Assembly: GCF_009900765.1 (NCBI RefSeq)
Contig: NZ_JAAABL010000003.1
Location: forward strand, 124,001 to 188,000
Source: Rhodovarius lipocyclicus
Lineage (GTDB): Bacteria; Pseudomonadota; Alphaproteobacteria; Acetobacterales; Acetobacteraceae
DNA: 64,000 nt
Direction of reading: 5' to 3'
The notes beneath the pieces were generated by a model. The model searched no databases. It was not told where the DNA came from and saw only the letters and a list, made by a program, of their open reading frames with translations. Shown here one piece after another: positions 38,684-43,671 of this stretch (position 1 is the stretch's first letter; each line of letters begins with the position of its first letter). A program made the position numbers and the translations under genes.

Positions 38684-40984
38684 ATGGAAAAATTCGGCAT
38701 GGGCCAGCCCGTACGCCGCAAGGAGGATACGAGGCTCCTGACCGGCCGTGGCCACTACACCGACGACCTGAACCGCGAGGGCCAGGCGCATCTGGTGGTG
38801 CTGCGTTCCCCGCACGCCCATGCCCGGATTCTGTCCCTGGATGTGACGGAGGCGCGCGCCGCCCCCGGCGTTCTGGCGGTGCTGACGGCCGATGAGGCGG
38901 CGGCCGATGGCCTCGGCCTGTTCCCCGTGATGGTGGATGTGCCCGGCAAGGGCGGCACCAAGCTGGCGGCACCCCCGCGCGCCATCCTGCAAAAGGACAC
39001 GGTGCGCTTCGTGGGGGACCCGGTGGCCCTGGTCGTGGCCGAAACCCGCGCCCAGGCGCAGGACGCGGCCGAGCTGATCCTGGTCGACTACGACATCCTG
39101 CCCAGCATCACCGACACGGGTGCGGCGGACGCCGAGGGCGCGCCCCAGATCTGGCCCGAGGCCCCGCGCAACACCTGCGTGTTGTGGTCCAACGGGCGCG
39201 AGGCCCTGGCGGATGAGGCCTTCGCCAAGGCCGCGAAGGTCTCCCGCATCCGGCTGGTACAGAACCGGCTGGTCGGCAACCCGATGGAACCGCGCGTGGC
39301 CGTCGGCGAATACGATGCCGGAACGGGCCGCTTCACCCTGACCAGCCCCACCCAGGGCGTGGTCCGCGTGCGGGAGGCCCTGGCCCAATACGTGTTCGGC
39401 GTGGACAAGGCGCAGGTGCGCGTTATCTCGCCCGATGTCGGCGGCGGCTTCGGCCTGCGGGGCAAGCTGTTCCCGGAATCGGCGATGGTGCTGTGGGCGG
39501 CGAAGCGCCTGGGCCGGCCCATCAAATGGCGCGCCGACCGCACCGAGACCTTCCTGTGCGACCCCCATGGCCGCGACCATGTGACCGAGGCCGAGATGGC
39601 CTTCGACGCCAATGCCCGCATCCTGGGCATGCGGGTGCGGACCAATGCGGCGGTGGGCGCCTATCTGCTGGATTTCGGGCCCCGCGTGCCCACCGTGGCG
39701 GGCGGGCGCATCCTGGGCACGGTCTATGACATGCAGGCGGTGGATGTGCAGGTGCGCTGCGTCTTCACCAACACCGCACCCACCGATGCCTATCGCGGCG
39801 CCGGGCGCCCCGAGACCGCCTATGTGATCGAGCGCCTGCTGGACCTGGCCGCGCCCGATTTCGGGCTCAGCCGGGAGGCGATCCGCGCCCGCAACTTCAT
39901 TCGCCCGGACCAGATCCCCTACACCAACTGCGTCGGCAACGTGATCGACAGCGGGCATTTCGAGGAAACCCAGGGGCTGGCCCTGAAACTGGCCGATTGG
40001 GACGGCTTTGCCGCCCGCCGCGCCGAGAGCGCCGCGCGCGGCAAGCTGCGGGGCAGGGGCCTCGGCTATTTCGTCGAGGCCTCGGGCGGGCAGCCCTTCG
40101 AATGGGCGCGGGTGGCGTTCCAGCCCGATGGCATGGTGAACCTTTCGGTCGGCACCTTCAGCCACGGCCAGGGGCATGAAACCGCCTTCGCGCAATTGCT
40201 GCACGACAAGCTGGGCGTGCCCTTCGACAAGGTGCGGCTGGTGCAGGGCGACAGCGATGTGGTGCCAAATGGCGGCGGCACTGGCGGTTCGCGCTCCTCC
40301 CAGATGGGCGGTGTCGCCACCGTGCGCACCGCCGAGCTGGTGATCCAGAAGGCGCGGCGCATCGCCGCCACCCTGCTGGAAGCCGGCGTGGACGACATCG
40401 AGTTCGAGGCCGGCCGCTTCCGTGTGGCGGGCACCGACATCTCCGCCGGCTGGGACGAGCTGATCGCGGCCGGCGAGGCACCCAACCTGGACGAACAGCA
40501 CGTCTACAAGCGCGACACCGAGTGCAACTTCCCCAATGGCTGCCATGTGGCCGAGGTGGAGGTGGACCCCGACACCGGGCTGGTGGAGGTGGTGCGCTAT
40601 GCCGCCGTCGATGACGTGGGCGTGCCCATCAACCCGCTGCTGGTGCATGGGCAGTGCCATGGCGGCATCATGGCCGGGCTCGGCCAGGCGCTGCTGGAGC
40701 ACGCGCGCTACGACGACGAGACCGGCCAGTTCCTGACCGCCACCTTCCAGGATTACTGCATGCCGCGTGCCTCGGACGCGCCGGCGTTCAACGTGGACCT
40801 GAATGTGGTGCCGTGCCCCAGCAACGACCTGGGCGTGAAGGGCGCAGGGGAGGGCGGGGCCTGCGGCGCGCCGCCGGCCATCGTCTCGGCCTTGTGCGAT
40901 GCGCTGGGCGTGGCACACATCGACATGCCCGCGACGCCGGAAAAGGTCTGGCGCGCGCTTGAAAGCCGGACCGCCGCCGCATGA
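38684..40984 (+). CDS. Xanthine dehydrogenase-family molybdopterin-binding (large) subunit
   Basis: 766 aa, full length for a CoxL/XdhB-type subunit. Start MGQPVRRKEDTRLLTGRGHYTDD is the normal N terminus. Cofactor motifs are GGGFG (res 253-257), the Moco loop AYRGAGRPE (369-377, not the AYRCSFR of form I CO dehydrogenase) and GVKGAGEGG with the predicted catalytic E723. It would hydroxylate an aldehyde or N-heterocycle with water. The FAD (CoxM) and 2Fe-2S (CoxS) subunits normally encoded beside it are absent, so partners must lie elsewhere. It overlaps a PrpF-like isomerase gene by ATGA. ATG 38684 is used because upstream sequence is the divergent ACAD leader. Confidence 0.92.
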   Translation: MEKFGMGQPVRRKEDTRLLTGRGHYTDDLNREGQAHLVVLRSPHAHARILSLDVTEARAAPGVLAVLTADEAAADGLGLFPVMVDVPGKGGTKLAAPPRAILQKDTVRFVGDPVALVVAETRAQAQDAAELILVDYDILPSITDTGAADAEGAPQIWPEAPRNTCVLWSNGREALADEAFAKAAKVSRIRLVQNRLVGNPMEPRVAVGEYDAGTGRFTLTSPTQGVVRVREALAQYVFGVDKAQVRVISPDVGGGFGLRGKLFPESAMVLWAAKRLGRPIKWRADRTETFLCDPHGRDHVTEAEMAFDANARILGMRVRTNAAVGAYLLDFGPRVPTVAGGRILGTVYDMQAVDVQVRCVFTNTAPTDAYRGAGRPETAYVIERLLDLAAPDFGLSREAIRARNFIRPDQIPYTNCVGNVIDSGHFEETQGLALKLADWDGFAARRAESAARGKLRGRGLGYFVEASGGQPFEWARVAFQPDGMVNLSVGTFSHGQGHETAFAQLLHDKLGVPFDKVRLVQGDSDVVPNGGGTGGSRSSQMGGVATVRTAELVIQKARRIAATLLEAGVDDIEFEAGRFRVAGTDISAGWDELIAAGEAPNLDEQHVYKRDTECNFPNGCHVAEVEVDPDTGLVEVVRYAAVDDVGVPINPLLVHGQCHGGIMAGLGQALLEHARYDDETGQFLTATFQDYCMPRASDAPAFNVDLNVVPCPSNDLGVKGAGEGGACGAPPAIVSALCDALGVAHIDMPATPEKVWRALESRTAAA

Positions 40985-42105
40985 GCCAGAAGTTCATCCC
41001 CGCCACCTTCATTCGCGGCGGTTCCTCCAAGGGCGTGTTCTTCCACGCCAAGGACGTGCCCAGCGACCGGGCCGCGCTGGACCCGATCCTGCTGGAGGTG
41101 CTGGGCTCGCCCGACCCGTATCAGCGGCAGCTGGATGGGATGGGGGGCGGGATTTCCTCGCTCTCCAAGGGCGTCATCATCGGCCCGCCGACGCATCCTG
41201 ACGCCGATGTGGACTACACCTTCGCCCAGGTCGCGGTGGACAAGCCGATCGTGGACTGGAAGGGCAATTGCGGGAATTTGTCCTCCGCGGTCGGGCCATT
41301 CGCCGTCGATACCGGGCTGGTGCAGGTCGCGGATGGCGAGGCGCTGGTGCGCATCCATCAGGTGAACACGAAAAAGATCATCCACGCCCGCTTCCCGGTG
41401 AGGAACGGCAAGGCCGAGGTGCGCGGCGACTACGCCATCGCGGGCGTGGCGGGCACGGGCGCGCGCATCCGCCTGGATTTCCTGGCCCCGGGCGGCACCC
41501 AGACCGGCGCCCTGCTGCCCACCGGCCAGGTGATCGAGGAGATCGAGGGCCTGCCCTGCACCCTGGTCGATGCCGCCAACCCGGCGGTGTTTTTCGCCGC
41601 CAGCGACCTGGGCCTGACTGGCGAGGAGACCCCCGACCAGATCGAGGCCATCCCCGGCATGATGGCGCGGCTGGACCATCTGCGGCGCCTGGCGGGCGTG
41701 CGCATGGGCCTGGCCGAAACGCCGGAGAAGGTGGGCCTCGCCGCGCCCCGCGTGGCGCTGCTGGCCCGCCCCGGCGCACCGAAGCTGCTGGATGGCTCTG
41801 TCATGACGCCCGACAGCCACGACATCCAGGTGCGCATGCTGTCCATGGAGCGCGTGCACCGCGCCGTGCCGCTGACGGGCGCGCTGGGCCTGGCCTGCGC
41901 CTGCAAGGTGGCGGGCAGCCTGCCGGCCAGCCTGTGCGGCCCGCTGCCGCGCCCCGACGAGATCCGCGTGGCCCAGCCCAGCGGCATGCTGGCCGTGGGG
42001 GCGGAGGTGCGCCACGACAATACTGGCTGGCGCGCCGAAAGTGCCGTCGTGTATCGGACCGCGCGCACCCTGATGATCGGCGCCGTGTCCATCCGGGAAG
42101 ACTGA
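40981..42105 (+). CDS. PrpF/4-oxalomesaconate tautomerase-family isomerase
   Basis: 374 aa. It has the two-domain diaminopimelate-epimerase-like fold, with FIRGGSSKGVFFHAKDVP at the N terminus, SLSKGVIIGPP (K63) and GNCGNLSSAVGPFAVD (C97). K63 and C97 are spaced like the catalytic K73/C107 pair of PrpF. The family isomerises unsaturated tricarboxylates such as 2-methylaconitate (propionate catabolism) or 4-oxalomesaconate (gallate catabolism). No prpBCD or gallate genes are here. The ATGA overlap with the molybdenum hydroxylase suggests action on a product of that enzyme; that is inference. Confidence 0.88.
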   Translation: MSQKFIPATFIRGGSSKGVFFHAKDVPSDRAALDPILLEVLGSPDPYQRQLDGMGGGISSLSKGVIIGPPTHPDADVDYTFAQVAVDKPIVDWKGNCGNLSSAVGPFAVDTGLVQVADGEALVRIHQVNTKKIIHARFPVRNGKAEVRGDYAIAGVAGTGARIRLDFLAPGGTQTGALLPTGQVIEEIEGLPCTLVDAANPAVFFAASDLGLTGEETPDQIEAIPGMMARLDHLRRLAGVRMGLAETPEKVGLAAPRVALLARPGAPKLLDGSVMTPDSHDIQVRMLSMERVHRAVPLTGALGLACACKVAGSLPASLCGPLPRPDEIRVAQPSGMLAVGAEVRHDNTGWRAESAVVYRTARTLMIGAVSIRED

Positions 42106-42170
42106 AAAAATAATCGCTTTCTTTGCGCCAAATCAAAGAACACCCCCCTCCCTGCCGGTAGCTTTCCCTC

Positions 42171-42286
42171 AGCGTTCACCGGCAGGGGGCATCCCGGCAG
42201 GGCAGCGATTTCAGGCCCCACCACGCTGCCTTGGTCCCCGACCCGTCCGAGGCCTCTTCGCGGGTTGCCGGTGAACGCTCTTTTTT
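42171..42286 (+). ncRNA. Candidate structured RNA or leader/attenuator before hemA
   Basis: AGCGTTCACCGGCA (42171-42184) and TGCCGGTGAACGCT (42266-42279) are perfect 14-bp complementary arms, 81 bp apart, followed by C and six T. Inside, 42198-42207 pairs with 42224-42233 (core GGCAGCG/CGCTGCC), and ACCCG/CGGGT (42241-42245/42261-42265) makes a second hairpin. The whole reads as a closed multi-branch fold ending like an intrinsic terminator. It lacks the GGAA tetraloop of SRP RNA, and I cannot match it to 6S RNA. The upstream 60 bp is AT-rich but shows no convincing promoter. It could be a small RNA or a transcription attenuator for hemA. Confidence 0.4.
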
Positions 42287-42316
42287 CCATATAATTTTCA
42301 GGAAGAGGCTGCTTTG

Positions 42317-42451
42317 ATGCCCAGCATGCTGGAAACAACCCTGCTCTGCATCCTGGTCCTTGCCCTGCTGCCCACCATGGCGCAGATGTGGCGGGCGCCG
42401 CGACCGCGCCCCATCCCCGTGCCGGCCCGCCGTCGTCACCGCCCTTTCTGA
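42317..42451 (+). CDS. Small membrane peptide (44 aa), unknown
   Basis: Not recognised. It begins at ATG 42317 behind GGAAGAGG. The first half is one hydrophobic helix ([18 protein letters not shown]) and the second is a proline-arginine tail ([19 protein letters not shown]), consistent with a single-pass inner-membrane peptide with a basic cytoplasmic end. The stop is 8 bp before the hemA start, so its translation could affect hemA initiation. The absence of another gene in this gap and the clear hydrophobic/basic split support it, but comparative evidence is lacking. Confidence 0.5.
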
Positions 42452-42459
42452 GAGAACCG

Positions 42460-43671
42460 ATGGATTACAGCGCCTTCTTCCAGTCCAAACTCCAGGGCCT
42501 GAAGGATGAGGGACGCTATCGCGTCTTCGCCGAGCTGGAGCGTATCCGGGGGCAGTTCCCCACCGCCACCCATCATGGCCAGGCCAACAAGCCGCCGGTG
42601 AAGGTGTGGTGCAGCAACGATTACCTCGGCATGGGCCAGCACCCCGCGGTGCTCGCCGCGATGCATGAGGCGCTGGACCGTTCCGGCGCCGGTGCCGGCG
42701 GCACCCGCAACATCGCGGGCACCAACATCGACCACATCGCGCTAGAAGCCGAGCTGGCCGACCTGCACGGCAAGGAAGCGGCCCTGCTGTTCAACAGCGG
42801 CTACATGTCGAACATGGCCACGCTCTCCACGCTCGCGGCGCAGATGCCGGGCTGCGTGGTGTTCTCGGATGCGTTCAACCACGCCTCCATGATCGAGGGC
42901 ATCCGCCATTCCCGCGCGCAATGCGTGATCTGGAAGCACAACGACCTGGATGATCTACGCGCGAAGCTGGCCGCCGTGCCCGCCGAGACGCCCAAGATCA
43001 TCGCTTTCGAGAGCGTGTATTCCATGGACGGCGACGTCGCGCCGATCGCGGAGATCTGCGACCTGGCCGACGAGTTCAACGCCATCACCTACCTCGACGA
43101 GGTGCACGCCGTGGGCCTGTATGGCCCGCGCGGCGGCGGCATCAGCGAGCGTGACGGGCTGGCCCACCGCCTGGATGTGATCGAGGGCACGCTGGCCAAG
43201 GCCTATGGCGTGATCGGCGGCTACATCACCGGCAGTGCGCAGCTGGTGGATTTCGTGCGCAGCTTCGCCTCGGGATTCATCTTCTCCACCTCTCTGCCGC
43301 CGGCCGTCGCCGCCGGTGCCCGCGCCGCGATCAGCCACCTGAAATCCTCGGATGCCGAGCGCGCGGCGATGTTCGCCAATGTGGCGCGGCTGCGGGCGGG
43401 CCTGGATGCGCTGGGCATCGAACACCTGATGAACCCCAGCCACATCGTGCCCGTGATGGTGCGCGACGCGGCGCTGTGCAAGCGCATCAGCGACACGCTG
43501 CTGGACGAGCACGGGATCTATGTGCAGCCCATCAACTACCCCACCGTGCCGCGCGGCACGGAGCGGCTGCGCTTCACCCCCTCGCCCCTGCATGGCGAGA
43601 CCGATATCGCGGCACTGCTGAAGGCGCTGGGTGAGATCTGGGCACAGAACAGCCTGTTGAAGGCGGCATAA
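42460..43671 (+). CDS. hemA: 5-aminolevulinate synthase
   Basis: 403 aa from ATG 42460; an in-frame start at 42388 would overlap the small membrane ORF. Alpha-oxoamine synthase features are [12 protein letters not shown] (51-62), [15 protein letters not shown] (75-89), [12 protein letters not shown] (211-222) and [14 protein letters not shown] (242-255), with Schiff-base K247 (K248 in Rhodobacter). The [15 protein letters not shown] segment is diagnostic of ALAS. It condenses glycine and succinyl-CoA to ALA, the first step of heme synthesis in Alphaproteobacteria. A structured element and a short ORF precede it, which suggests post-initiation control. Confidence 0.96.

Follow-up and report, generated by a model that had tools for sequence, protein, structure and literature searches.

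What does a strongly structured element do between prpF and hemA, the gene for 5-aminolevulinate synthase, in Rhodovarius lipocyclicus? The window analysed here, a stretch of 64,000 nucleotides (64 kb) from contig NZ_JAAABL010000003.1, carries prpF, the element, a 44-codon ORF, hemA and a transketolase/PDH-E1-like gene in that order (Table 1), and the element starts 65 nt 3′ of the prpF stop. The original prediction had placed it in the widest gap of the window (bigger gaps appear in a gene call too crude to decide the point) and upstream of hemA. The latter is right in that the element lies 5′ of the hemA start codon (ATG at 42460); the adjoining gene, however, is the 44-codon ORF. The product of this ORF is, by eye, hydrophobic in its first half and Arg/Pro-rich in its tail, and a Pfam search returned no match. 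In Rhodovarius crocodyli, which forms one genus-level group with the genome of the window (Rhodovarius being placed in the Roseomonadaceae), 30 of its 45 codons, the stop included, specify the identical residue.

Table 1. Features of the prpF–hemA interval, in window positions
Feature	Position	Strand	Basis
prpF (gene 5′ of the element)	40981..42105	+	PF04303, E 1e-107
Predicted FNR/FixK-type box TTGCGCCAAATCAA, TTG[AC]-N6-[TG]CAA, centre 42129.5	42123..42136	+	sequence pattern
Hairpin U, upstream arm CCCTGCCGGT; pairs with 42178–42187	42150..42159	+	perfect 10-bp inverted repeat
Candidate −10 hexamer TAGCTT (TAGTTT in R. crocodyli)	42159..42164	+	inferred; 3/6 consensus bases
P1 5′ strand AGCGTTCACCGGCA; predicted RNA 5′ end at 42171	42171..42184	+	start inferred from box centre + 41.5
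Internal arm 1	42185..42239	+	fold, two-species consensus
Internal arm 2 CCCGUCCGAGGCCUCUUCGCGGG	42242..42264	+	fold, two-species consensus
P1 3′ strand TGCCGGTGAACGCT, 3′ half of the terminator stem	42266..42279	+	sequence, fold, consensus
T6 tract, predicted RNA 3′ end	42281..42286	+	identical in R. crocodyli
44-codon ORF between element and hemA	42317..42451	+	R. crocodyli ORF has the same length and corresponding start and stop
hemA, 5-aminolevulinate synthase	42460..43671	+	TIGR01821, E 8e-194, exceeds model cut-off

The element had been said to resemble neither SRP RNA nor a known riboswitch, and Rfam bears this out. When the 64-kb window was searched at gathering scores no family matched the element, and when E values up to 10 were admitted only unrelated families appeared, at E 4.7 and 5.5. 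The genome's only match to 6S RNA (RF00013), with 50 bits, lies elsewhere, at G000:C1:201247-201406, and the element itself does not match this family. A few narrow literature searches turned up no paper on the element.

The fold and its conservation

The two arms of the closing stem, P1, were found as originally described, with 14 perfect pairs separated by 81 nt and followed by a C and T6. Among perfect inverted repeats with arms of 14 bp or more and no more than 150 nt between them, P1 is the only one in the window. Since 2 of 20 dinucleotide-shuffled windows also hold a repeat of this class, the improbability of P1 by itself is only moderate. The complete fold, on the other hand, is far stronger than chance: the segment 42168–42288 reaches −63.5 kcal/mol against −45.5 ± 3.6 for its shuffles (z −5.0), none of 200 shuffles being as good, and the R. 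crocodyli copy gives z −4.7. For the whole 211 nt of the prpF–ORF interval, z is −3.0 on the plus strand and −2.2 on the minus strand. The two internal hairpins of the original prediction are both present in the consensus fold, and the element is thus modelled as a three-way-junction RNA closed by P1.

In R. crocodyli the element is found at the corresponding site (E 3e-41, 86%), with 104 of 117 bases identical. Fourfold sites are identical at 156/212 positions in hemA and at 165/229 in prpF, together 321/441, and the difference from the element is significant (Fisher p 2e-4). At arm 2, 22 of 23 bases are the same over 42243–42265. The apical loop of arm 1, AUUUCAGGCCCCACCA (42208–42223), is almost invariant, while the stem below it varies with its pairs kept. 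Compensatory changes, which had been proposed as a check, are indeed seen: all 39 pairs are kept across 13 substitutions, nine of which fall in paired columns, two one-base gaps fall in unpaired columns, and two pairs have changed on both sides. As just two sequences carry the element, this covariation rests on a single comparison, that of one species pair. Random placement of the same changes kept all pairs in 709 of 200,000 trials (0.35%), a somewhat generous figure because the changes were placed independently and the structure had been derived from those two sequences as their consensus.

The anatomy of the 3′ side is that of a predicted intrinsic terminator, with the 14-bp stem, the C and T6 in both species. 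A simple scan for terminators, covering loops of 3–8 nt between 41900 and 42500, called no other.

The upstream box and the predicted start

The box upstream of the element follows the degenerate pattern TTG[AC]-N6-[TG]CAA, which we take to be a FixK2-type consensus, and sits within a longer dyad, CTTTG-N8-CAAAG, that has changed symmetrically to CCTTG-N8-CAAGG in R. crocodyli. Counting 41.5 nt on from its centre leads to 42171, where P1 begins. The two species share an offset of 48 nt from the start of the box to P1, although the intervening 34 nt agree at only 23 positions. In the FNR consensus quoted in passages of PMC3688515, TTGAT-N4-ATCAA, two bases differ from the box, in one half only. 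The same passages report that 19 of 23 FNR-activated Escherichia coli promoters with known starts have their site at −41.5 ± 4.

How much weight the box can bear depends on how often such a pattern occurs. The degenerate pattern occurs 97 times in 4.59 Mb (roughly 2e-5 per position) and its backwards-read control 52 times, so that going by the control half as many sites are expected; the box was, moreover, noticed after the element, and other motifs would likewise have drawn notice. The stricter pattern TTGCGC-N3-ATCAA has five genomic sites against one for the control, and the flanks of the other four, judged by eye, form no coherent gene set. Within 400 nt upstream of hemA the degenerate pattern was found in 11 of 78 loci, L079 (see below) among them, against 1 and 0 in controls; L081 and L131 were left out for their short flanks, and related loci are non-independent. 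Going by the sequence pattern, putative FNR-type boxes are thus enriched before alphaproteobacterial hemA. In Neoroseomonas two of five loci (L091, L100) have the box 88–108 nt before hemA with no intervening element.

A nearly identical dyad, CCTTGCGCCACATCAAGG, occurs at G000 C1:113358-113371 (L066), between two ORFs that by eye look like a heavy-metal ATPase and a short heavy-metal-binding protein. The same regulator may bind here too, or the dyad may belong to a metal regulator.

A scan for sigma-70 promoters called no stand-alone promoter at the element. Relative to a start at 42171 the candidate −10 hexamer would span −12 to −7, and it is a poor match. A TATAAT at 42290–42295, after the terminator, has a TTGCCG 19 bp upstream; it was left uncalled by the same scan and reads TACAAC in R. 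crocodyli.

A candidate regulator was sought with a Crp-type helix-turn-helix model, which has 13 matches in the genome, six of them above the cut-off (a control search matches all 14 genomes). Two of the top four that were read, L159 and L160, were taken as Crp/FNR-like. L159 carries C-X2-C-X7-C near its N-terminus plus a later Cys, a pattern that is presumably that of an Fe-S oxygen sensor.

A proposed self-terminating RNA ahead of hemA

The original prediction had offered a small RNA or an attenuator, and this is strengthened by the conserved fold, the compensatory changes, the terminator anatomy and a predicted promoter-type box at a suitable spacing. The further suggestion of a response to heme, ALA or iron found no evidence; the box points instead to oxygen, by way of the FNR/FixK family. 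Probably the element serves either as a small RNA or as a brake built in ahead of hemA, known so far from two Rhodovarius species only. The more specific proposal, to which we give about an even chance, is an FNR-type-activated, self-terminating structured RNA of ~110–116 nt (42171 to ~42286). Under low oxygen an activator of the FNR/FixK type would occupy the box and transcription would start at 42171; the RNA would fold as a three-way junction with P1 joining its 5′ end to its 3′ end; P1 and T6 would then stop transcription and leave a stable small RNA, which may act on targets, so that the read-through fraction of polymerase alone would continue into the 44-codon ORF and hemA. Placing an activator of hemA ahead of a terminator that blocks hemA would be an odd arrangement if the terminator were neither leaky nor regulated.

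FnrS is a short self-terminating RNA for which Rfam contains a model, and the ends of 6S RNA are joined by a long stem. The element shares this last feature with 6S RNA, and differs from FnrS in having no Rfam match, in the pairing of its 5′ and 3′ ends in a 14-bp stem, in its position before hemA and in its box, TTGCG-N4-ATCAA as opposed to TTGAT-N4-ATCAA. The likeness to FnrS would lie in a short product that terminates itself and in the class II distance of the box: passages of PMC3688515 place the FNR site of the E. coli small RNA fnrS at −42.5, compared with −41.5 to the predicted start here. A kindred alphaproteobacterial layout is known from Rhodobacter sphaeroides, where, according to passages of a ChIP-seq study (PMC4263372), FnrL occupies sites ahead of hemA and also ahead of the small RNAs RSs0019 and RSs2461. 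The sites of hemA and of the small RNAs are separate there, whereas here the RNA would lie between box and hemA. The same passages report that the hemA transcript of an fnrL mutant was not significantly different from that of the wild type, and treat FnrL control of both small RNAs as not established (PMC4263372). As a molecule the proposed RNA has no counterpart in Rfam; as a kind, a small RNA with an FNR-type promoter is already known. If the proposal is true, oxygen would control the entry into heme synthesis through an RNA set between an FNR box and hemA.

Antisense sites to the arm-1 loop with up to two mismatches number 20 and 15 in the two genomes, the element included, against 11 and 10 in controls, which is not clearly above control, and this search yielded no trans target. 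A single 15-mer, TGGTGGGGCTGGAAA, accounts for five of the 20; it lies on G000 C1, C13, C47, C48 and C77 and may be a repeat, for example an insertion sequence. A pairing in cis, between GCCTCTTC of arm 2 (42252–42259) and the ribosome-binding region of the 44-codon ORF, GAAGAGGC (42302–42309), is perfect here and was given no weight because R. crocodyli has one mismatch in it.

An alternative hairpin and a possible choice by start site

Ranked by how well they survive, the FNR-activated RNA comes first, at roughly even chances, a hemA attenuator next, as an unlikely alternative, and a plain terminator of the prpF operon third, likewise unlikely. The attenuator arises from a second hairpin, U, the upstream arm of which can pair with part of the P1 5′ strand; U excludes P1 and also breaks the base of arm 1. 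In R. crocodyli the upstream arm differs at one of its ten bases, and the partner strand has changed with it: T42153 has become C and A42184 has become G, which keeps the U pair and leaves P1 with a G-U. P1 and U are mutually exclusive, and both can form in both species, two sequences in all.

The logic of this alternative is that the strand at 42150–42159, by pairing with the 5′ arm of P1, could let RNAs begun further upstream run past the terminator. A start upstream would favour U and read-through, and an FNR-dependent start at 42171 would favour P1 and a stop; the one segment would then give either a terminated, oxygen-regulated small RNA or an antiterminated hemA mRNA, depending on the start site. 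We regard such a device as possible rather than likely. It draws on the observation that U is perfect and compensated, though the surrounding 34 nt from the box to P1 are only 23/34 identical in R. crocodyli, and on the folding of growing transcripts, modelled as equilibrium folding of prefixes and not as kinetics. RNAs of the window sequence that start 31 or 65 nt before P1 keep U at a probability of 0.93–1.0 up to the point where P1 lacks its last 3 nt, and RNAs that start at 42171 already have P1 at 0.99 at that point; the dependence on the start site is inferred from these prefixes. A polymerase at T6 still covers the RNA stretch of the P1 3′ end, so P1 may come too late in the longer transcripts. 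Against this stand several results. In full-length RNA of either start P1 wins at equilibrium (0.95–0.999), RNAalifold on a longer two-species alignment chose P1 and not U, and in R. crocodyli a start at −31 leaves U (0.53) about level with P1 (0.43) at 3 nt before the end. The window holds 14 10-bp repeats like U, U included, and the alternative presumes prpF transcripts that reach the element.

The arrangement resembles terminator/antiterminator attenuators in that two hairpins compete for the P1 5′ strand ahead of T6; it would differ from them in that the choice is proposed to be made by the transcript start and not by a ribosome, tRNA, protein or ligand. It is this attenuator reading that could be new. 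If it is true, promoter choice would decide, quite simply, between a small RNA and an mRNA.

A possible terminator for prpF

The plainest explanation is that the element only terminates the prpF operon, with an ornate loop and with no RNA product of its own. The distance of 65 nt from the prpF stop, the stem with T6 and the lack of any other terminator called by the scan (41900–42500) would all suit such a role. A branched loop of 81 nt that is more conserved than fourfold sites is, however, not needed for it, the box at its fixed spacing is left unexplained, and hairpin U would hinder the termination of prpF transcripts. We consider this explanation unlikely, behind the FNR-activated RNA and the start-site attenuator.

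Distribution and gene order

A riboswitch-like hemA leader, in which the junction or the arm-1 loop would bind a metabolite of the heme/ALA type, fits the position before hemA, the two exclusive folds and the conserved loop. Metabolite riboswitches are usually widespread, and it is here that the distribution of the element bears on the question. A DNA search of 60 relatives found a match in two, the genome of the window included. With a covariance model, strong matches among 397 genomes of the family were obtained in two, that of the window and R. crocodyli; among 385 genomes of the class only the window's own genome matched at E 0.01; and of 80 named hemA loci one (L079) matched, the next at E 0.24. 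Covariance searches of more than 40 genomes used stricter filters, with which weak relatives could be missed. The family sample gave ten further weak places, nine in other genomes and one in the own genome (E 0.014–0.48). Six of these were aligned, of which two reach the 3′ end of the model and lack a T tract there and four end before it, and all ten were taken as chance. Such a distribution, together with the lack of an Rfam match and of support for any ligand, makes the riboswitch quite improbable.

The expectation of conservation in close relatives was thus borne out for one congener of eight, R. crocodyli, and failed for the seven others, in which the best match has E of at least 0.018 (two of the seven assemblies have a completeness of 69% and 82%). 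A mobile element or repeat, raised in the original prediction on account of the inverted ends, and in keeping with strong matches confined to two species, is very improbable: a search for further copies found the element once in its genome, the remaining matches being short (best E 0.05), none of 72,556 plasmid or 50,697 phage records matches it, it occupies the same site in both species and it is conserved as RNA, the multi-copy version being already refuted by the copy number.

The seven congeners that lack the element have a different gene order at hemA. At one of their loci, L036, the ORF before hemA is PuhE (TIGR03055, 192 bits against a cut-off of 164), and its stop overlaps the hemA start. 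Five further congeners have a puhE-like gene directly before hemA, as judged by eye over 500 nt, and the 88 nt upstream visible in the seventh (L037) agree with a puhE–hemA order. Going by these gene orders, the two genomes without the puhE–hemA order are the ones where the element is found with hemA. Reaction-centre genes (PF00124) were found in six of nine genus genomes; the same search gave none in the window genome, in R. crocodyli or in G004, which is 69% complete. PMC10715153 counts Rhodovarius as one of the genera that lack photosynthetic traits. If the FNR-activated RNA is real, this manner of control would belong to relatives of phototrophs whose hemA no longer follows puhE.

Small ORFs before hemA

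The possibility that the 44-codon ORF is a remnant of PuhE was considered and found too weak to claim: the BLASTP match has E 0.089, 35 and 18 of 1000 shuffles score equally well, and the likeness to the PuhE C-terminus falls in differing registers in the two species.

Another small ORF, of 37–38 codons (30 as called in L096), abuts hemA in 17 of the 80 hemA loci (L086–L089, L093, L094, L096–L099, L101, L103, L113, L118, L146, L156 and L158; for example L098, 2383–2499), nine of the 17 records being titled Roseomonas sp. Its product ends in ARPG-x-x-FWAR-x-x, in 16 of 17 cases with SDLR[AT]IARPG, and could be a leader peptide.
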